IMG/VR virus record: IMGVR_UViG_3300024430_000006
Span: 1 to 39,317 of that record
DNA length: 39,317 nt
Strand: one strand, 5' to 3'
From: a virus
Below the pieces are notes generated by a model. The model saw only the letters and a program-made list of their open reading frames with translations. It was not told the origin of the DNA and searched no databases. The position numbers were made by a program, and so were the translations under genes. Positions 3,550-38,268 of the stretch are shown piece by piece (positions within the stretch are counted from its first letter, which is position 1; each line of letters opens with the position of its first letter).

Positions 3550-4205
3550 CCTCCACGATCGAGCGCCGCACCCTGACCGAGCCGGTCGAGCTCCGGGCCG
3601 AGGGCGGCAAGCGCCAGGCGCACGGCTACGCCGCTGTGTTCAACAAGCTGTCTCAGAACCTCGGTGGGTTCGTCGAGCGGGTCGCCCCGGGCGCCTTCGC
3701 CAAGACGCTGCAGGAGCAGGACATTCGGGCCCTCTTCAACCACGACGAGAACCACGTGCTCGGCCGGCTGGCCGCCGGCACGCTCCGGGCTGAGGAGGAC
3801 GGCACCGGCCTCGTCTACGACATCGACCTGCCCGACACCGTCTCCGGCCGGGACGTGGCGACCCTGCTCGAGCGGGGCGACGTCTCCGGCTCGAGCTTCG
3901 GGTTCCGGGTCGTCGAGGACGAATGGGGCGAGACCGAGCAAGGGTTCCCGCTCCGCACTCTGAAGGCGGTCGCCCTGCGCGACGTCGGACCCGTCACCTT
4001 CCCGGCCTACACCGACTCGACCTCCGCCCTGCGCTCCCTCGCCGAGAAGCGCAGCCTCGATCTCGACGTGCTCGTTGCCGCCGCTGCGGCCGGCGAGCTC
4101 GCCACCCTGATCGTCCCCCGGGACGACGACAGCCAGCGAAGCGACGACGACGGCCGGGACACCCCCACCGTCGTTCGGGAACGCCTCACCTGGCTGACGA
4201 GCTGA
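3546..4205 (+). CDS. Prohead (capsid maturation) protease
   Basis: A 219-aa HK97-family serine protease that trims the capsid delta domain after prohead assembly. The catalytic His lies in LFNHDENHVLGR (H66) and the Ser in DVSGSSFGF (residues 112-120). The segment ending FPAYTDSTSA matches the usual end of the protease core. The last ~50 residues are acidic and probably disordered. The gene directly precedes the capsid gene, as expected. Confidence 0.93.
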   Translation: MTSTIERRTLTEPVELRAEGGKRQAHGYAAVFNKLSQNLGGFVERVAPGAFAKTLQEQDIRALFNHDENHVLGRLAAGTLRAEEDGTGLVYDIDLPDTVSGRDVATLLERGDVSGSSFGFRVVEDEWGETEQGFPLRTLKAVALRDVGPVTFPAYTDSTSALRSLAEKRSLDLDVLVAAAAAGELATLIVPRDDDSQRSDDDGRDTPTVVRERLTWLTS

Positions 4206-15188: not shown

Positions 15189-17269
15189 GCATCGAGTTCG
15201 AGGGCAGCGGTGCCTTCGCTACCGGCACGACCTCGGTGACGCCGCCGCTCCCGGCTCACGCCGCCGGCGACGTGCTGATCGCCCACGTCTCGGCCAAACC
15301 GGTGAGCACCGGTACGCCGCCCGTGTTCTCGACGGCCACCGACGGGTGGGCCGAGGTCCCCGACAGCTTCGCCACGTCCGACAGCGGCGTCGCCCAGGGT
15401 TCGGCCGTCGGCCAGACGTGGGAGGTGCTGTTCTACAAGGTCGCCGAGAGCTCGGCCGAGGATGACCCCGTCATCACCGTCACGAACGGGAACACCGCCC
15501 ATGCCTCGGCCGTCTGCTTCAGCAAGACGAACCCCTCGAACGTGTGGGACGTCACCGGCGCCAACGGTGGCCGGGCCACGAACAGCACGACGTTTTTCGG
15601 GACGACGCCCAACTTCGAGCCTGACGTCGACCTCGGCGCCGGTGACATGGTATTCGTCGCCGCCTGCTCGCACGGCTCCTCGACCCGCTCGGCGCAGACG
15701 ATCACGGCCGACGGCATGACGTTCGGGACCTACACCGAGATTCAAGAGGCGAACAGCGCCATCGGCAACGACATTTCGAGCGTGACGTACTACGCCGAGG
15801 TGACGGCCGGCATCCGGGCGATCGTCACCGTCGATCACAATTCGACCTCGTCGTCGGGCATGACTGGCGCCTTCTCCATGGCGCGGCTGAAGGAGGTCAC
15901 CGGGGGCGTCGAGGTCACGATCGGGCGGGCGACGGAGGCTGATGCCGCTCGAGCCCTTGCGGCGACGAAGGGCCTCGTCCCCGTGGCGATCGGGCGGGCC
16001 CTCGAGGTCGACGCCGCCCGGGAGCTCACCGCGACCGGTGGCATCCCCGGCGGGTTCGGGTTCGGCATGCAGCCCTTCGGCACGAGCCCCTTCGGCGGGT
16101 CGGAACCGTCCGAACCTGAGCCGCCGCCCACCGTCCCCGGTGGGACCGGCACGGGTGGTGGAAGCGGTGGGTCCGTCCTCGGCCCCGCTGGTGCTCCGAC
16201 GGGCACCTATCAGGTGATCAGCCAGACCCGCGACGGTGAGCAGGTCGCCGAGCTCGTCAGGGCCACCGACGTCGTGTTCACCGAGCGGCTGAACCAGCCC
16301 GGGGCGTGCTCCTTCCGGCTCCCCGGCATCTTCCTGCCCGACGCCGACGGCAACCTCACCGTGCCGCTGAAGACGGTCCTCGAGGATGGAGTACACGAGA
16401 TCGGCGTGCGCCGCAACGGTGCCCTCGTCTGGCTCGGCCCGCTCACCGCCGTCGAGGAGTCGATCGACGAGGACGGGCGAGCTGACATCGCCGTTTCGGC
16501 CGAGGGCCTGGCCTCCTACCTGTGGCGGTGGAAGATCGACGTCGCCGGTCGGGTCGGGCCCTTCACTGACACCGACCAGGCGATCATCGCGAAGGCCCTC
16601 GTCGACCACCACCAGGCCGAGGGCGGGGGTGACTATGCCGGCATCGACACCTCGAGCGTGGCGACCACGGGTGTCACCCGCACCCGCACGGAGTACGACG
16701 GCTTCCGGGACATCGACGTGGGCGACGCCGTCGCCGCGTTGGCGGCCGTCGAAGGCGGGTTCGATTGGGCCGTCGGCGTCGACCGCGTGTTCCGCATCTA
16801 CTACCCCCGCCGCGGCACCCGGCGCACCGAGGTCACGTTCAGCGTCGAGAACGTCCTGAGCCTTCGCCGCACCCGTGACGCCAGCCAGCAGGCCTCGAGG
16901 GTCCTGGGATTCGGCGACGGCTCCGACGAGTCTTCGGTGCGCCTGTCCCGGCAGGATTCGGCCGCCGTCGCGAAGTACGGCCTCACCGACGCCTCGTGGA
17001 AGGGCAGCAACATCGCCGGCGAGGACACCCTTGCCGCTCACGTCGTCGAGCACCTCGACCGGGTCAAGGCCAGCCCGAACGTCCTCAGCCTGACCGTGCG
17101 CTACGGCCTGAACCTGCCCTATGGCTCCTTCGGCCTGGGTGACGAGGTGCGGGTCATCTACTCCTCGGTGTGGGAGGACATCGACGAGTACCGCCGCGTG
17201 GTCGGGATCGACACGCGGCCTTTCCCTGACGAGACCTCCGTCATCCACCTCACGCCGATCGGAGGTTGA
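15185..17269 (+). CDS. Gp37-like minor tail protein with N-terminal adhesion module
   Basis: 694 aa from GTG 15185. Residues 1-235 are a β-sandwich. Two 20-residue units follow (VTIGRATEADAAR..., VAIGRALEVDAAR...), the same repeat found 14 times in the protein at 20763. Then comes a Gly/Pro/Ser linker (about 290-340). Residues ~340-694 match actinophage minor tail proteins of the ReqiPepy6 Gp37-like type (LNQPGACSFRLPG, GPLTAVEES, FGLGDEVRVIY). This looks like a baseplate hub protein to which an adhesion domain was added. Confidence 0.75.
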   Translation: MSIEFEGSGAFATGTTSVTPPLPAHAAGDVLIAHVSAKPVSTGTPPVFSTATDGWAEVPDSFATSDSGVAQGSAVGQTWEVLFYKVAESSAEDDPVITVTNGNTAHASAVCFSKTNPSNVWDVTGANGGRATNSTTFFGTTPNFEPDVDLGAGDMVFVAACSHGSSTRSAQTITADGMTFGTYTEIQEANSAIGNDISSVTYYAEVTAGIRAIVTVDHNSTSSSGMTGAFSMARLKEVTGGVEVTIGRATEADAARALAATKGLVPVAIGRALEVDAARELTATGGIPGGFGFGMQPFGTSPFGGSEPSEPEPPPTVPGGTGTGGGSGGSVLGPAGAPTGTYQVISQTRDGEQVAELVRATDVVFTERLNQPGACSFRLPGIFLPDADGNLTVPLKTVLEDGVHEIGVRRNGALVWLGPLTAVEESIDEDGRADIAVSAEGLASYLWRWKIDVAGRVGPFTDTDQAIIAKALVDHHQAEGGGDYAGIDTSSVATTGVTRTRTEYDGFRDIDVGDAVAALAAVEGGFDWAVGVDRVFRIYYPRRGTRRTEVTFSVENVLSLRRTRDASQQASRVLGFGDGSDESSVRLSRQDSAAVAKYGLTDASWKGSNIAGEDTLAAHVVEHLDRVKASPNVLSLTVRYGLNLPYGSFGLGDEVRVIYSSVWEDIDEYRRVVGIDTRPFPDETSVIHLTPIGG

Positions 17270-25737: not shown

Positions 25738-26061
25738 ATGACGGACGACGAAGCGTCGTACTTGCGCGAGATCGAGGAAGAGAACGAGGCGTTGCGGCGT
25801 GCTCTGCGCGCCATGCGGGCCGGGATCACGGCCGCCCTCGACGAGGTCCCGCGGTCGCGGCTTCTCGAGTGGTTCCCGGCAAGCGGGTTCTACGACCGCC
25901 TCGACAGGGTGGCCGAGGCCCAAGAGGCTACCGACGGTTCGCCCGCCCGTTCGTCCGATGCCCCTCGACCATCTCCCGATACGTCGCCAGAAGCACCCGC
26001 CGGTCGCGGTCGTCGAGGGCGGGGTCGGCTTCAATCGCTTGTGTCACTGTTGTCGTGGTGA
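25738..26061 (+). CDS. Small coiled-coil protein, convergent with repressor
   Basis: 107 aa from ATG 25738 (an upstream in-frame ATG 25708 would give 117 aa). Residues 1-40 form a strong coiled coil (YLREIEEENEALRRALRAM). The next segment (RSRLLEWFPASGFYDRLDRV) is helical and conserved-looking. The last ~45 residues are Ser/Pro/Arg-rich and overlap the end of the leftward repressor gene by 134 bp, so the natural C-terminus is uncertain. Function unknown. Confidence 0.5.
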   Translation: MTDDEASYLREIEEENEALRRALRAMRAGITAALDEVPRSRLLEWFPASGFYDRLDRVAEAQEATDGSPARSSDAPRPSPDTSPEAPAGRGRRGRGRLQSLVSLLSW

Positions 26062-26305
26062 CGGCCTCGACCGGCAGGTAGCCCAGGAACCTCGACAGGG
26101 TCCCGGCCGGGAGCTCGAGCAGCTCCTCGATCAGGAACACCCGGTCGGCCTCCCGGGGCGCGCTGTCGCCCGTGTACCACTTGCTCACTGCCTGGGGCGT
26201 GATCCCGAGCGGCTCCGCGAGGTGTTCACGGGGCCGCCCGGCCATCGCTCTCTGTAGGGCCGCGCCGAAGCCCGACCTGTCTGCTTCCGCCATGAAAGTG
26301 AGCAT
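25928..26305 (-). CDS. Immunity repressor-like HTH protein
   Basis: 125 aa from ATG 26305 (ATG 26293 also possible). A Cro/CI-type helix-turn-helix spans about residues 25-50: LAEPLGITPQAVSKWYTGDS. The C-terminal region (EAVTTTTVTQAIEADPALDDRDRRVL) is helical, with no LexA-like protease motif. It is one of only two leftward genes and diverges from the early operon across an operator-rich region, as a prophage repressor would. Confidence 0.8.
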   Translation of the reverse strand: MLTFMAEADRSGFGAALQRAMAGRPREHLAEPLGITPQAVSKWYTGDSAPREADRVFLIEELLELPAGTLSRFLGYLPVEAVTTTTVTQAIEADPALDDRDRRVLLATYREMVEGHRTNGRANRR

Positions 26306-26441
26306 TGCACACCCGTCACGTCGGGTGGCGGTTTCGTCCCGAAACCTACACGGGCGGTCACTTTCCGTCACAAAATGCGGGAGTTGCGTCACGAAAACGT
26401 AAGTGTTGACAGCGGATCGCCAGAGTTGCACACTGCAACCC
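26306..26441. promoter_or_regulatory. Divergent immunity/early control region
   Basis: Less GC-rich than the flanks. It contains the palindrome GGTTTCG-TCC-CGAAACC (26330-26346) and GTTGCA-CAC-TGCAAC (26425-26439). Direct repeats CGTCACRAAAA lie at 26366-26376 and 26387-26397 (21 bp apart), with another CGTCAC at 26314 and GTCAC at 26357. Rightward promoter: TTGACA 26406-26411, 17-bp spacer, CACACT 26429-26434. The second palindrome covers this -10, so binding there would block early transcription. A candidate leftward promoter has TTGTGA on the minus strand near 26369-26374. Confidence 0.7.
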
Positions 26442-26633
26442 GTGGGTGCACCCGGTGATCCTCCCTCCCCTTTCCTGACCCCTGAAGAGCTCGCCGAAGA
26501 GCTCCGGGTCACGATCCGCACCGTCTACCGCTGGCGCCGGAACGACGAGGGCCCGCCGGCGATCAAGGTCGGCGGCCAGCTCCGCTACCGGCGCACCGAT
26601 GTCGAGCAGTGGCTCGAGGCGGCGGCGTCGTGA
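26442..26633 (+). CDS. Excisionase-family HTH protein
   Basis: 63 aa from GTG 26442. A single HTH_17/MerR-like domain: LTPEELAEELRVTIRTVYRW, then the wing with GGQLRYRRTDVEQWL. Proteins of this family act as recombination directionality factors or Cro-like regulators. First gene of the early operon. GTG 26442 lies seven bases after the -10 box and has no ribosome site, so the mRNA is probably leaderless. An in-frame GTG at 26403 is upstream of the promoter and is rejected. Confidence 0.8.
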   Translation: MGAPGDPPSPFLTPEELAEELRVTIRTVYRWRRNDEGPPAIKVGGQLRYRRTDVEQWLEAAAS

Positions 26634-28280: not shown

Positions 28281-28588
28281 GCGCGATCAACGGCCCCGTG
28301 TTCGCCGTCGCCGTCGGCGTCGCTGCCCTGATCCTCGCCGTGCGATACGGCGTGCGCCCCTTCACCGATCGAGGAGCTCGCCGGGCCCGGCGTGAGCGTG
28401 ACCGGGAGATCAAGGCCCTCGTCGCCGAGGTGCGACCGACGTACTGGCGCCCGCACGTTGCGGAGAATCACCTGCACCTCGCCCTCCGCAACGCCGATCG
28501 GTGCCCGTCGCTGCACGTCTACGGCGGCGTGAGCGGTGGCGCCCGGCGGCCGTACGACCGGGCGACCGAAGGTGACGACGCGGCGTGA
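28277..28588 (+). CDS. Small membrane protein with basic cytoplasmic helix
   Basis: 103 aa. An N-terminal transmembrane helix (about 6-23, GPVFAVAVGVAALILAVRYG) is followed by an Arg-rich helix (RGARRARRERDREIKAL) and a C-terminal region with HLHLALRNADRC. Unknown function; third membrane protein of the early operon. Confidence 0.5.
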   Translation: MSAINGPVFAVAVGVAALILAVRYGVRPFTDRGARRARRERDREIKALVAEVRPTYWRPHVAENHLHLALRNADRCPSLHVYGGVSGGARRPYDRATEGDDAA

Positions 28589-29856
28589 GCACCGCCCGCT
28601 ACATCGTCGGCGACAGCCTCACCGTGCTCCGGTCGATGGAGGACGCCTCGGTCGACCTCGTTCTGTCGTCGCCGCCCTTCCTCGCCCTGCGGTCGTACCT
28701 CCCGGCCGACCACCCGGACAAGGCGAAGGAGATCGGCAGCGAGCCGACGCCGGGTGCGTTCATCGACACCCTGCTCGACATCGTGGAGGAGTGCCGCCGG
28801 GTGCTCGCTCCCCACGGCTCCCTGGCGTTCGAGCTGGGCGACACCTACAGCGGGAGCGGTGGCGCCGGCGGCGACTACGGCGACGATGGCATGCGGGCCG
28901 GACAACCTGAGTTTCAGGGGTCTGCGGTACGGAACAAGCCGGGATATGGCGGCTTTGCTGGCGGCAAGCGGAACCGGAACGGAACGCAAGGCGGCCCCGG
29001 CTGGCCGCTCGACAAGTCCCTCTGCCTCATCCCTGAGTTGTTCCGCATCGCCCTCGTCTACGGGTTCAACCCCCTCACCGGGCGTCAGACGCCACGGTGG
29101 CGGGCTCGCAACGTCGTCCGGTGGCACCGCCCCAACCCGCCCGTCGGGGCGCTCGGGGACAAGTTCCGCCCGGCGACGAGCGACATGGTGATCGTCTGCA
29201 TGTCGGGTCGGCGGTACTTCGACCTCGACGCGGCGCGGACGCCGCTTACCGAGCCCGACGCCGTGAAACGGCACTCCACCGAACAGCGGAATCCGCGCCA
29301 GGGCTGGGACAGCAACAACGCCGAGATTCGGCAGAACCCCGCCGGTGCCCCGCCCCTCGATACGTGGGTCATCCCCACCGCCCCGTACAAGGGCGCCCAC
29401 TACGCCACCTTCCCGCCTGCCTTGTGCGAGCGGCCGATCAAGGCGATGTGCCCGATCCGGGTTTGCCGGAGGTGCGGCGAGCCGTCGAGGCGGATCACCG
29501 AGGCGACGGACGACTATGCCCAGCACCTCGGGTCGTCGTGGGCCGACCGTTCGGACGGACGCACAAAAGCCGACGGGCGTGAGCGCAACAGCCACAGCGG
29601 CCAACCGGTCGGGGATCACATCGTCGCCGCCAGCCGCACCACCCTCGGCTGGACCGACTGCGGGCACGATGACTGGCGCAACGGCGTCACGCTCGATCCG
29701 TTCGCCGGCAGCGGCACTACGCTCGCCGTCGCCACCGGGCACGGCCGGGACGCCGTCGGGATCGACCTCGACGAGCGTAACGCCGACCTCGCCTACGAGC
29801 GCATCGGCATGTTCCTCACGGTGGAGCACCACGAGTCCCCGGAGGCGGTCGCGTGA
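28585..29856 (+). CDS. DNA methyltransferase, N6-adenine/N4-cytosine (β class)
   Basis: 423 aa. Catalytic motif IV SSPPF (S29-F32) precedes the SAM-binding motif I DPFAGSGTT (371-379), the β-class order. Between them are a variable target-recognition region and a split zinc ribbon (C294, C297, C359, H361). It ends with GIDLDERNADLAYERI, the usual post-motif I strand-helix. It transfers methyl from SAM to an exocyclic amine of A or C. No partner restriction nuclease is obvious, so it probably protects phage DNA from host restriction. Confidence 0.9.
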   Translation: MSTARYIVGDSLTVLRSMEDASVDLVLSSPPFLALRSYLPADHPDKAKEIGSEPTPGAFIDTLLDIVEECRRVLAPHGSLAFELGDTYSGSGGAGGDYGDDGMRAGQPEFQGSAVRNKPGYGGFAGGKRNRNGTQGGPGWPLDKSLCLIPELFRIALVYGFNPLTGRQTPRWRARNVVRWHRPNPPVGALGDKFRPATSDMVIVCMSGRRYFDLDAARTPLTEPDAVKRHSTEQRNPRQGWDSNNAEIRQNPAGAPPLDTWVIPTAPYKGAHYATFPPALCERPIKAMCPIRVCRRCGEPSRRITEATDDYAQHLGSSWADRSDGRTKADGRERNSHSGQPVGDHIVAASRTTLGWTDCGHDDWRNGVTLDPFAGSGTTLAVATGHGRDAVGIDLDERNADLAYERIGMFLTVEHHESPEAVA

Positions 29857-30713
29857 TCCTCGACCTGTTCGCCGGTCCTGGCGGGTGGTCCGAGGGCCTG
29901 CGCCTCCTCGGCCTCGACGACGTGGGCATCGAGTGGGACGGCCCCGCCTGCGCCACCCGATCCGCTGCCGACCATCGCACCATCCGGGCCGACGTGAGCC
30001 AGTACCCGACCGAGCCGTTCGTCGGCAAGGTCGAGGGCCTCATCGCCTCGCCGCCGTGCCCGGACTGGTCGTCTGCCGGGAAGCGGGCCGGCATGAGCGG
30101 CAGAAGCGGGTACCTCGTGCGGGAGGTGCCCCGCTGGGTCGAGGCCCTTCTGCCCCGGTGGGTGGCGTGCGAACAGGTTCCCCTTGCTCTTCCTGTCTGG
30201 CGCGAGTACGCCGCCCGCTTCCATGCGCTCGGCTATTCGGTGTGGACCGGTCTGCTGAACGCCGTCGACTACGGCGTCCCGCAGACCCGAAAGCGGGCCA
30301 TTCTCGTCGCTTCGTTCGATCGTCCCGCGGGCCCGCCGACCCCGATCCTTGCCCCGCCGGTGACGATGGCCGAAGCGGTCGGGTGGACCGGCGCTCTGCA
30401 CACGAACCGCGGGCAGAACCGATTCGGCGAGCGCCAGGTCCTATCGGTGCACCGCCCGGCGCCGAGCTTCACCGCGAACGCTGGGGCGCAGTGGCAGATT
30501 CGTGAGACCGGCGGTTCGTCTCGGACGATGGCCGACGGCGGCCGAAAAGTCTCTGTCGCCGAGGCGCTGATCCTGCAAGGGTTCCGGCCCGACTACCCGG
30601 TGCAGGGCACCCGAATCGAGCGGCTCGAGCAGATCGGCAACGCCGTCCCGCCGCCGCTCGCCGCCGCCGTGATCGGCGCTCTCGTCGGTCACGAGCGGGA
30701 GGCCGCAGCGTGA
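29853..30713 (+). CDS. DNA cytosine-5 methyltransferase
   Basis: 286 aa, GTG start overlapping the previous gene. Motif I DLFAGPGG (4-11); motif IV SPPCPDWS with catalytic C69; motif VI CEQVP (E107); motif VIII GVPQTRKRA (Q144, R146, R148); motif X QIGNAVPPPLA near 265. The short target-recognition domain lies between about 180 and 230. All main motifs are present, so it is likely active. Paired with the upstream methyltransferase, it suggests a double modification anti-restriction strategy. Confidence 0.93.
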   Translation: MILDLFAGPGGWSEGLRLLGLDDVGIEWDGPACATRSAADHRTIRADVSQYPTEPFVGKVEGLIASPPCPDWSSAGKRAGMSGRSGYLVREVPRWVEALLPRWVACEQVPLALPVWREYAARFHALGYSVWTGLLNAVDYGVPQTRKRAILVASFDRPAGPPTPILAPPVTMAEAVGWTGALHTNRGQNRFGERQVLSVHRPAPSFTANAGAQWQIRETGGSSRTMADGGRKVSVAEALILQGFRPDYPVQGTRIERLEQIGNAVPPPLAAAVIGALVGHEREAAA

Positions 30714-34715: not shown

Positions 34716-34954
34716 CGGATCGGCACGCCCCCCCGGCGCACGGCGTCGTCGTCCCTGACGGGGCGGCGGCGCCCGCCGGCGCGTTCTCCGATACCGAAAT
34801 CCGCGCCCTCTACGCGACGCTCATCGATCGATCATGGGACGACCCAGACCTTTTCGAGGTTCATCAACGGGCGTGGAATGACATTTCTCGCTTGTGGCAC
34901 GTCGATGTAGAAGGCAATGGGCACGGGCGCGTGATCCGCCATACAGAAGCGTGA
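34712..34954 (+). CDS. Hypothetical protein, TTG start
   Basis: 80 aa; the only plausible start is TTG 34712, overlapping the preceding stop (ATTGA). N-terminal Pro/Ala-rich stretch, then FSDTEIRALYATLIDRSWDD and EVHQRAWNDISRLWHVDVEG, helical with Trp/His. The 3' half is less GC-rich. Two bases separate it from the primase gene. Unrecognised. Confidence 0.5.
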   Translation: MTDRHAPPAHGVVVPDGAAAPAGAFSDTEIRALYATLIDRSWDDPDLFEVHQRAWNDISRLWHVDVEGNGHGRVIRHTEA

Positions 34955-34956
34955 CC

Positions 34957-37344
34957 ATGTCCAACGTCTTCGGGCCGATCGGGCCGCTGTCCTTCCACGC
35001 GAAGGCCTACGCCGAGCAGGGCCTCGAGGTGTTCCCGCTCAAGGCTGACAAGGCGCCGGGCACCCGTAACGGGTTCAAGGACGCGACCATCGATCCCGGC
35101 CAGGTCGACGCGTGGTGGGAGACGTCGCCGGCGGCCCTGATCGGGCACCGCATCGCCGTCGAGTACGTGGTGCTCGACATCGACCCTCGCCACGGCGGTC
35201 ACGAGACGTGGCTCGCCCTCAAGGCCGAGCTCGGCGGCAAGCTGCCCCTCACCCGGGCCCACGCCTCCGGCCGCGGCGACGGCGGGATTCACGTGTGGTG
35301 GCTCCGGCCCGGCGACAGGCTGACCACCCGGCGCCTCGACGAATGGGCCCGGGAACGCGGCCTCGGCGCCCCGAAGGAGCACGGCGGGTGGACGTCGGGC
35401 ATCGACCTCCTCACGCACGATCTGCGCTACACGATCCTCCCGCCCTCGCCCCACCCGCTCACCGGCAAGCCCTACTACTGGCTCCCGGGCCGGGGCCTCG
35501 AGGTCGAGCCGGCGCCGATGCCGGTCCTGCTCGTCGAGCTCCTCACCGACGACGCCCCGATCCCGGCCATGCCGGCGCCCAGGCCGAAGGACCCTGATAG
35601 CCCGGCCGACTGGTACAGCGACCGCACCCGGTGGACCGAGCTGCTCATCCCGGCGGGATGGCGGGTCGTGGCCGGTGACGGTGACTCGCCCGGCTCGAGG
35701 TGGCGGCACCCGTCGGCCACGGCGACGCATTCGGCGACGATCGGGCCGCATGGTCACCTGCACGTCTACACGACGTCGACGGCGTTCGTCCCGGTCGAGC
35801 CGGGCATCGCCGCCCATGGTTACACCCGCTTCGCCGCCTACGCCCTGATCCACCACGGCGGCGACGAGCGGGCGGCAGCTCGAGCCATCCGACAGCGCAT
35901 GTCGGCCCCGATCCGGCTCGCCGAGCGCAGCGCCGAGCACCTCCTCGGCGCGCCGGTGCCGCCGAGGGCCGAGAATCCGTCGCCAGAGGCCCCCAGGGCG
36001 CCGCAGGAGCCCGTCGAGGCCCCGGAGGCACCGATCACCCTGCCCGACGTCGTGTGGGACAGCAGAGAGTCCCTCGACCACGTCAGACGGGCGGCCCGGG
36101 CCCGTCTCGTCGCCCCCGATGCCGTCCTGGCCGCCATCCTCGCCCGGGTGGCGGCGATCACGCCCCACGTCATCGAGCTGACCGCGCCGGTCGGCGGGCC
36201 CGTCGGCCTGACCTACTACGCCGCCATCGTGGGGCCGCCGTCGATCGGCAAGAGCGCCGCCGTGAGCATCGCCGCCGAGCTGGTGCCGGCGCCGCCCAAC
36301 GTGCTCGACCGGCTGCCGATCGGCTCCGGCGAGGGCATGGTCGAGGTGCTCTACGGCACCGTCCCCGACCCCTCCGACCCGAAGGGCAAGGCCACGATGC
36401 GGGCGATCGTCGGCCACGCCGCGATCTTCCACGTCGACGAGGGCCAGGTGATCGGCGACCTGTCGGCCCGCCAGGGCACGACGCTCATGCCGACCCTTCG
36501 CTCGGCGTGGACGAATCAGCCCCTCGGCGCCGCCAACGCCTCGGCCGATCGCCGGCGCAACGTCCCCGGTGAGCAGTACGTCTACGGCATCACCCTCGGC
36601 GTGCAGCCCGAGCTCGCCGGGCCGCTCCTGAGCGACACCGCCGGCGGCACCCCGCAGAGGTTCCTGTGGGTCTCGGCCGTCGACCCTGGCATGGCGGCCG
36701 GCACGCCCTGGCCCGGACCTCTGCCGTGGACGCCGCCGGAGGTCGGACGCCTCGAGGACCGGGCGATCACCCGGGGCGGCATGCGGCGGTTCCCGCTCCG
36801 GGTCGACCCGCAGATCGAGCTCGACATCGTCACCGAGCGGGAGCGGGTGGGCCGGGGCGGCGACGTCGAGGTCGGCGACGAGCACCGGATGCTCCTGCGG
36901 TTCAAGACGGCCGCCCTGCTCGCCCTGCTCGAGGGCCGGGTCGACGTGAACCTCGAGGACTGGCACCTTGCCGACCTGATCCTCGACACCTCCCGGGAGG
37001 TGCGGCGGGCGGTCGGCGACGTGATCGGTGCCGTGAAGGCCCGGGCCGAGGATGCCACCGTCGCCCGGCTGGCCCACCGGGAGCTCACCGTCGAGGGCCG
37101 CCGGGAGGCGAAGGCGCTCGAGTCGGCCGCCCGGTCGGCAGCTCGCAAGGTGCACGCTCACGCCGAGGCGAATGAGCACCTGGGCGACGGCGACGCCTGC
37201 TCGTCCCGGTGCATCGCGCGCACCATCGCCGGCAAGCACCGAGCCCTCGTCACGGTCGACGAGGTGCTCGACGAGGCGGTGCGAAATCAGTGGATCGCGC
37301 CGGTCGGCGGGCGATGGGCGCCCGGTCCTTCGAGGCCGGCGTGA
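34957..37344 (+). CDS. Primase-polymerase / helicase
   Basis: 795 aa. Residues 1-185 are a bifunctional primase-polymerase (prim-pol) domain: GLEVFPLKADKAPGTRNGFK, catalytic VLDIDPRHGG (D74, D76), and GDGGIHVWWLR. A linker rich in Pro/Glu (about 335-365) leads to a RecA/DnaB-like ATPase region with Walker A GPPSIGKS (K432) and Walker B IFHVDEGQ (D494, E495). The C-terminal winged-helix-like piece (SSRCIARTIAGKHRALVTVD) ends at a WIAPVGGRWAPG motif. It initiates and unwinds phage DNA; no phage DNA polymerase is seen, so elongation probably uses the host enzyme. Next to it lies the candidate origin. Confidence 0.9.
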   Translation: MSNVFGPIGPLSFHAKAYAEQGLEVFPLKADKAPGTRNGFKDATIDPGQVDAWWETSPAALIGHRIAVEYVVLDIDPRHGGHETWLALKAELGGKLPLTRAHASGRGDGGIHVWWLRPGDRLTTRRLDEWARERGLGAPKEHGGWTSGIDLLTHDLRYTILPPSPHPLTGKPYYWLPGRGLEVEPAPMPVLLVELLTDDAPIPAMPAPRPKDPDSPADWYSDRTRWTELLIPAGWRVVAGDGDSPGSRWRHPSATATHSATIGPHGHLHVYTTSTAFVPVEPGIAAHGYTRFAAYALIHHGGDERAAARAIRQRMSAPIRLAERSAEHLLGAPVPPRAENPSPEAPRAPQEPVEAPEAPITLPDVVWDSRESLDHVRRAARARLVAPDAVLAAILARVAAITPHVIELTAPVGGPVGLTYYAAIVGPPSIGKSAAVSIAAELVPAPPNVLDRLPIGSGEGMVEVLYGTVPDPSDPKGKATMRAIVGHAAIFHVDEGQVIGDLSARQGTTLMPTLRSAWTNQPLGAANASADRRRNVPGEQYVYGITLGVQPELAGPLLSDTAGGTPQRFLWVSAVDPGMAAGTPWPGPLPWTPPEVGRLEDRAITRGGMRRFPLRVDPQIELDIVTERERVGRGGDVEVGDEHRMLLRFKTAALLALLEGRVDVNLEDWHLADLILDTSREVRRAVGDVIGAVKARAEDATVARLAHRELTVEGRREAKALESAARSAARKVHAHAEANEHLGDGDACSSRCIARTIAGKHRALVTVDEVLDEAVRNQWIAPVGGRWAPGPSRPA

Positions 37345-37560
37345 CCTGTGGAAAACCCGTCGGAATGTCGGAACCGTTCCGACATGACGTTCCGACAGAG
37401 TCGTGTGGTCAACGTTGGGAGAACATGAAATGACATATAATTTTCACTTCACGCGTACCCCCCTGAGCCGTTCCGACAATGGGCGTGTCGGAACGTTCCG
37501 ACGTTCCGACATCCGTTCCGACGTTGGAACGGAATCGACCGGGCGCCAGTCGGGGCCGGC
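37345..37560. other. Candidate replication origin / iteron array
   Basis: A 216-bp non-coding gap. Exact copies of GTCGGAAC or its complement GTTCCGAC start at 37367, 37376, 37389, 37470, 37487, 37495, 37503 and 37515; near copies at 37359 and 37523. Two pairs form perfect palindromes (37367-37383 with 1-bp spacer; 37487-37502 with none). TGTGGAAAA at 37347-37355 differs from a DnaA box by one base. Between the two clusters is an AT-rich stretch (37424-37448) including TATAAT (37436-37441). This layout is typical of an origin beside a replication gene, though an operator array for the downstream gene is an alternative. Confidence 0.7.
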
Positions 37561-38268
37561 ATGAGCGCGACCCCGGCCAACCTCGACGACCTGTTCGCCT
37601 TCCTGCGGGCCCTGGGCAAGCCCGACCGGGCGACGAAGCGGGTGCCCCTCGACGACCTCGAGCACCGGCTGCGTGAGGCACTCCGTCGAGCGGCGGCCGG
37701 CGAGGTCGTGGCCGACGGCTACCCGAAGGGCGGCGACGGTGGCGGATCGACCGGCGTCTCCCGCCCGACCGAGAACACCGTCCTCGGCCAGTACCGCCCC
37801 GTGGAGGTTGGCCGGCGGCCGGCGACGCCCGGCCCGTGCCTCGACTGCGGCGAGCGCCCGGCCTCCCGGCCCGATGGTCGGTGCGCCGACTGCGGGCCGA
37901 TGGCGCTCCGGGTGCAGCGCGACGTCGTGAAGGAGGATGCCGAGCGGGCCCTCGTGCTCCTGCTCGTCGCTCGTCGGGCCCTTGAGAACGCCGTCGCCCG
38001 GCTCGACCACCTCGAGAAGGCGACCGGTACCCCCGAGCCGATGCAGCTCTGCCAGTCCTGCATACGAGTCGGGGCCCATACCCCGATGGAGCACTACGGC
38101 GACGTCAGCGGGAAGCTGCCGACGCCCTGGCGCCTCTGCTACCCGTGCCTCCTGTGGATCAGCAAGCACGACAGCCTCGACGGGCTGCAGGCCTACCTCG
38201 AGCGCCGGCACATGGTCGGTGAGCGGGGCCGAGCTCGTGTGACGCCTCGGCGCCGGGTCCCGGCGTGA
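37561..38268 (+). CDS. Zinc-ribbon protein downstream of the origin
   Basis: 235 aa. N-terminal helical domain (NLDDLFAFLRALGKPDRATK...LEHRLREALRRA). Two paired Cys motifs, CLDCG...CADCG (about 93-110) and CQSC...CYPC (about 163-200), should bind zinc. A long helix (LVLLLVARRALENAVARLDH) lies between them. The C-terminus is Arg-rich. The initiation codon lacks an obvious Shine-Dalgarno. Could be a DNA-binding regulator or origin-associated protein; not assigned. Confidence 0.65.
   Translation: MSATPANLDDLFAFLRALGKPDRATKRVPLDDLEHRLREALRRAAAGEVVADGYPKGGDGGGSTGVSRPTENTVLGQYRPVEVGRRPATPGPCLDCGERPASRPDGRCADCGPMALRVQRDVVKEDAERALVLLLVARRALENAVARLDHLEKATGTPEPMQLCQSCIRVGAHTPMEHYGDVSGKLPTPWRLCYPCLLWISKHDSLDGLQAYLERRHMVGERGRARVTPRRRVPA

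Follow-up and report, generated by a model that had tools for sequence, protein, structure and literature searches.

The Rep protein of SaPI recognises iterons downstream of its gene via its C-terminal domain (PMC7581432), and the origins of PICI consist of two iteron sets around an AT-rich region located 3' of the initiator gene (PMC6092414). A Cch helicase from SCCmec has been termed MCM-like in a title cited in PMC7581432. For extrachromosomal mycobacterial prophages, RepA- or RNA-based origins are described (PMC7157519), and in the cluster O (Corndog-type) phages an AT-rich element with flanking repeats, located elsewhere in the genome, was proposed to hold an origin (PMC4351075). The searchable literature yielded no description in actinophages of an origin such as the one proposed here.

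The window, i.e. the whole stretch of DNA analysed, is the complete IMG/VR virus record IMGVR_UViG_3300024430_000006 (39,317 bases, 70% GC). As judged by sequence comparison and a predicted protein fold, positions 37347-37530 are very probably the replication origin of this phage, with the product of the preceding gene as candidate initiator.

The phage and its prim-pol/helicase gene

The virion genes in the window encode a terminase, portal, maturation protease, capsid, tape measure and minor tail proteins, and the portal is closest to those of phiC31-like Streptomyces phages. Further genes encode an endolysin, an integrase, an HTH repressor-like protein (25928-26521), a RusA-like resolvase, an exonuclease, a prim-pol and two DNA methyltransferases. 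As both an integrase and an HTH repressor-like protein are encoded, the virus is read as temperate, and it is most likely a phage of an actinobacterium. The methyltransferase genes, of types N6/N4 and C5, lie side by side at 28585-29856 and 29853-30713 with a 4-bp overlap.

The gene for the prim-pol/AAA+ helicase, the proposed replication initiator, occupies 34894-37344 on the + strand (predicted start) and specifies 816 amino acids. Residues 36-210 match Prim-Pol PF09250 (E=4.4e-27), a PHROG DNA polymerase/primase is matched at 2.4e-39, and the helicase half resembles DUF3987 (41/49 relatives). In the AlphaFold2 model of the helicase half (mean pLDDT 94.3), the C-terminus forms three helices followed by two strands, which is a winged helix in this predicted fold, and the nearest solved folds to the modelled half are MCM AAA+ helicases. 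The winged-helix codons lie at 37204-37323 on the + strand (approximately residues 771-810), and this segment is proposed to read the iterons on the basis of the model and of covariation with the iteron sequence (see below). Comparison of the initiator sequence with solved structures gave no match to a Rep.

The iteron array in the window

Directly after the prim-pol/helicase gene, and before the next gene starts at 37561, lies an array of the octamer GTCGGAAC/GTTCCGAC. It spans 37359-37530, comprises eight exact copies and two near ones, and begins 15 bp past the stop codon (37344). The left cluster (37359-37396) comprises a one-mismatch copy at 37359 (GTCGGAAT, + strand) and exact copies at 37367 (+), 37376 (-) and 37389 (-). 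The right cluster (37470-37530) comprises exact copies at 37470 (-), 37487 (+), 37495 (-), 37503 (-) and 37515 (-), and a one-mismatch copy at 37523 (GTTGGAAC, +). Back-to-back dyads are formed by the copies at 37367/37376 (1-bp spacer), 37487/37495 (spacer 0) and, imperfectly, 37515/37523 (spacer 0), while those at 37359/37367 and 37495/37503 are direct tandem pairs. The number of copies, their palindromic and tandem pairing and the position of the array directly behind the gene had been described in the first-pass annotation, and every one of these features is borne out.

Counted over the window, the octamer is not frequent elsewhere: four further exact copies of GTCGGAAC, at 16099, 18790, 32889 and 34057, are isolated, and 3.3 are expected by chance. 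With 8 copies in <160 bp, the array is the best 8-mer cluster of the 39-kb contig; the maximum in 60 second-order Markov shuffles was 4 copies, and no other 450-bp segment of the contig, out of 760, had more than 5.

Between the clusters, the AT-richest 30-mer (37420-37449) has 23/30 AT in a 70% GC genome and is the probable melting region. It contains TATAAT at 37436-37441, and the AT-rich stretch noted earlier between the copies is present. The DnaA box claimed at 37347-37355 was found as well, reading TGTGGAAAA, one mismatch from the DnaA box TGTGGATAA, and as the DnaA-box-like TTTTCCACA on the - strand. Of 104 arrays collected from relatives, 9 contain DnaA-like boxes (14 sites versus 1.6 expected), some overlapping TGTCCACA-type iterons, and an exact box is present in arrays L185 and L190, which are relatives of the window. 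The box at 37347 may be a real but optional, minor helper, and host DnaA may help replication in the subgroup of the window, which carries DnaA-like boxes.

Two further elements flank or overlap the AT-rich core. On the + strand, GGGAGAACA at 37417-37425 is common to one relative, L187, at the same place; L187 also has the TGTCGGAA iteron. Beside the AT core, the inter-cluster gaps of relatives are enriched in certain k-mers, among them ACGCGCGAG and CCCAGGTCA, which suggests a further conserved element in the predicted origins. From this k-mer enrichment, CACGCGTACC at 37450-37459 (+ strand) is, very tentatively, a possible counterpart of the CG-rich ACGCGCGAG-like element that follows the AT core in relatives. 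An Rfam scan of 36900-37900 gave no match. Cumulative GC skew, which the first-pass annotation had named as an indicator, neither backs nor refutes an origin at the array: the minimum is at 36725 in the raw curve and is uninformative, since it moves to 8344 once the trend is removed.

Arrays after the homologous gene in relatives

A DNA-similarity search of the array region found no phage match. Single-protein scans of viral and genome contigs with the window prim-pol likewise revealed no relatives, and for this reason relatives were gathered via an alignment of the helicase parts of distant phages, in which distant prim-pols were located by tblastn. This gave 160 loci, 152 of them scorable. 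An array of this layout, built each time from a different octamer, immediately follows the stop codon of the corresponding gene in TinyDot, BetterKatz, TPA4, Dulem virus 32, Santhid, Reyja and two M. abscessus prophages. No such array follows the primase in Korravirus-type and Microbacterium phages, which have only the N-terminal primase domain in common with the window, nor was one found after the primase stop codon of Catdawg (Corndogvirus).

Arrays were scored over the 350 bp that follow the initiator stop codon, by how many times one 8-mer occurs there exactly, with thresholds of at least 4 and at least 5 copies. The lower threshold was reached by 92/152 relatives and the higher by 73/152, versus 129/10,609 (1.2%) and 29/10,609 (0.27%) of background windows, respectively. 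All 92 belong to the 127 relatives with a short C-terminal tail, so that the array is kept beside the prim-pol gene in most of these; the other 35 have no array at the 4-copy threshold, which misses diverged arrays.

With phage and prophage loci added to the scored relatives, 104 arrays were available, representing 72 lineages when core identity is cut at 70% and 41 when it is cut at 50%. Each array repeats one octamer 4-14 times, both orientations are present in 104/104, and the median array spans from +12 (first copy) to +198 (last copy) after the stop codon. The AT-richest 30-mer falls inside the largest iteron-free gap in 93/104 arrays, versus 47% expected. When the two clusters were compared for mirror symmetry, the inverted arrangement fitted better in 47 arrays and the direct one in 1, with a tie in 44.

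The iteron sequence varies between phages, and the layout of iterons, AT core and iterons is kept. The nearest relatives of the window are distant (~40% identity in the core), and its iteron core is common only to L187, which carries TGTCGGAA x10 and whose C-terminus also has a C..RC-type motif. A scan of viral contigs for clustered GTTCCGAC gave 69 matches, none with a prim-pol relative in the stretches examined, indicating that the octamer itself is not what is conserved.

Some observations concern other loci. The non-actinobacterial Lactobacillus phage phiJB (L168:7077-7300) has a layout resembling that of the arrays, in which CGTAGTCA surrounds an AT-rich stretch after a helicase gene, with only three exact copies. 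Gordonia phage Sadboi (L167:7733-7960) has four or more copies of CGGTTACG downstream of a primase whose homology to that of the window is N-terminal only; these repeats are possibly another type of origin. Deposited hypothetical genes overlie the predicted origins in TinyDot (gp58, L004:7245-7595), Santhid (gp52, L003:35347-35577) and Reyja (gp57, L170:5089-5319), and may be spurious annotations.

The candidate reader of the iterons

Among 89 arrays, iteron similarity correlated with C-terminal similarity when the ATPase core was controlled (partial r 0.32; 0/500 permutations reached this value, and their maximum was 0.13), and not with core similarity when the C-terminus was controlled (partial r -0.01), the P-values of these correlations being approximate because related sequences are not independent. 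In array pairs with a core identity of >75% (n=42, overlapping), C-terminal and iteron similarity were related with rho 0.78, the P-value being nominal on account of the overlap.

A natural swap is seen between prophiGD05-1 and prophiGD17-1, where DNA identity is 97-100% just upstream, 59-72% across ~400 bp with the winged-helix codons and the array, and 94-100% downstream. In the M. abscessus prophages, the exchanged block of ~450 bp consists of the winged helix and the array and lies within near-identical DNA. The iteron, either GGTGGAGGC or GGTGTCAGC, goes with the C-terminal allele in every M. abscessus prophage locus examined, and in L184 and L178 a further C-terminus is paired with yet another iteron. 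Block exchange of winged helix and array is seen in these prophages between L007 and L159 and among L172-L184. The exchanged block may set the replication compatibility of co-resident M. abscessus prophages.

Where the protein is longer, as in 25 relatives, the array is found within the reading frame, right after the winged-helix codons. These relatives had been taken as array-free, an assignment that was rejected when inspection placed the array inside the gene. At least 4 copies of a 7-mer were found at that site in 15/25, versus 0.7% of background windows. The array thus stays with the DNA-binding domain and goes neither with the stop codon nor with the next gene. Examples of in-gene arrays, at ~3600-3800 of each locus, are L298, L299, L340, L342 and L317, in which the repeats are translated as a linker and would form an intragenic origin. 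The lambda O origin is also intragenic, lambda O being of a different family and neither a helicase nor a primase.

Taken with the predicted fold, the covariation and the natural swap indicate that the iterons are likely read by the C-terminal winged helix of the prim-pol/helicase, the likely initiator. Two proposals of the first-pass annotation, that the array serves replication and that it comes with its own likely initiator, gain support, the former from the rarity of the octamer elsewhere and from the retention of the array beside prim-pol genes.

Other readings of the array

An array of this form might instead serve as a multi-site operator for the gene at 37561, as had been considered earlier, or as an autoregulatory site of the primase operon. 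A + strand gene begins shortly after it, TATAAT lies within it, and its dyads would suit dimeric repressors. However, a promoter and terminator scan found nothing, including no sigma-70-type promoter, and the iterons track the C-terminus of the primase. The gene at 37561-38268 (+ strand) encodes a 235-aa protein with four CxxC motifs, for which no match was found in phage records, Pfam or PHROGs. A zinc-ribbon gene was examined as a conserved partner after the array and rejected, only 14/92 next ORFs having at least two CxxC motifs. The gene following the array is not conserved between relatives and falls outside the conserved origin unit, and in the 25 long-tailed relatives the array is inside the primase gene; an operator role is therefore improbable. 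Initiator bound to the iterons could repress locally as a side effect.

Equally improbable is a reading in which function resides in one large stem-loop, of the kind suggested for pRN1-type prim-pol replicons, and not in a set of individually read iterons. Such a structure was proposed 3' of the gene for pRN1 and phage BIP-1 (PMC4234260), and the mirror-image clusters would allow the strand to fold into a long stem (z = -3.4), so that a contribution from a stem-loop is possible. However, orientations are mixed within a cluster in 87/93 arrays, which favours iterons over a stem, and copies in direct tandem do not contribute to one. One octamer is repeated 4-14 times, and what each genome preserves, and what varies along with the winged helix, is the sequence and not just pairing.

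The least probable reading, also raised in the first-pass annotation, is that of stoperators: some actinophages use such dispersed single sites, here of the phage immunity repressor, and the phage is temperate with a repressor-like gene of its own, but the copies form one cluster ~11 kb from that gene and occur elsewhere in the window at chance level, which makes a stoperator role very improbable.

Proposed replication mechanism

In the replication origin favoured here, the winged helix of the prim-pol/helicase would bind the GTCGGAAC iterons of both clusters, as suggested by covariation and the predicted fold. Two helicase assemblies (rings) would form in opposite orientation on the roughly mirror-image clusters, the MCM-like AAA+ motor would melt the AT-rich core (37420-37449), and priming there would fall to the archaeo-eukaryotic primase domain at the N-terminus. 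Replication would then run, probably bidirectionally. Binding, ring number, melting and priming are proposed partly by analogy with SaPI, SCCmec Cch2, P4 and pRN1.

On balance, we lean slightly towards the wider view that a large family of actinobacterial temperate phages uses an exchangeable replication-specificity cassette, in which a winged helix of ~60 residues and an iteron/AT-core origin of ~200 bp, the latter coding in one branch, recombine as a block. This would give phages with near-identical replication enzymes different origin specificities and, probably, different replication compatibility in polylysogens.

Origins are hereby predicted by sequence for ~100 actinobacterial phages and prophages (72 lineages at the 70% cut), each together with the protein segment that would read it, so that natural variants are at hand for testing how initiators recognise origins. 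Compatible plasmid vectors for tool-poor hosts could be derived from small replicons of these phages.

Comparison with known replicons

The arrangement in the window shares features with several known systems and differs from each. As in the Pri-Rep-ori of the SaPI/PICI islands of Staphylococcus and E. coli, the putative origin lies directly 3' of the initiator gene in the window and in most relatives, and two iteron sets surround an AT-rich region in the window and in 93/104 arrays. In the islands the helicase C-terminus is said to recognise the iterons, and here it is the candidate reader, as predicted from the fold, the covariation and the natural swap. In contrast to these islands, the present putative origins belong to complete tailed phages of Actinobacteria, and an archaeo-eukaryotic prim-pol is fused to a DUF3987-type helicase. 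The window phage is not a PICI, since it encodes a full virion and a PICI is a satellite that needs helper phage capsids.

The alpha protein of the satellite phage P4 primes, unwinds and binds origin repeats via a winged helix (as cited in PMC4234260), as is proposed for the window protein. However, P4 has a Toprim (bacterial-type) primase and the window has Prim-Pol PF09250, which is of the archaeo-eukaryotic type, and the phage is therefore not a P4 replicon. ORF904 of the archaeal plasmid pRN1 also combines a prim-pol and a helicase with a winged helix at the C-terminus, and the pRN1 origin comes right after the gene (PMC4234260), but that origin is a 100-nt stem-loop without iterons, whereas iteron arrays, also able to form a long stem, are found here.

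For SCCmec, PMC7581432 describes the Cch2 helicase, whose isolated C-terminal domain binds direct repeats downstream of the operon, at a putative origin. Unlike in the window, the primase proteins are separate and there are three short (5-nt) iterons, and the passages on it report no AT core flanked by two sets. Classical iteron plasmid origins have regular direct repeats and DnaA boxes, in contrast to the two orientations in 104/104 arrays and the DnaA-like boxes in 9/104 found here.

A prim-pol initiator can thus apparently pair with an iteron origin, and not only with the stem-loop proposed for pRN1-type replicons. The published statement that the PICI origin layout occurs in no other bacterial replicon is challenged by these phages. 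By analogy, the mode of working would be that of the PICI/SaPI rep-ori replicons and of the phage P4 origin, here predicted for complete tailed phages whose primase is archaeo-eukaryotic.
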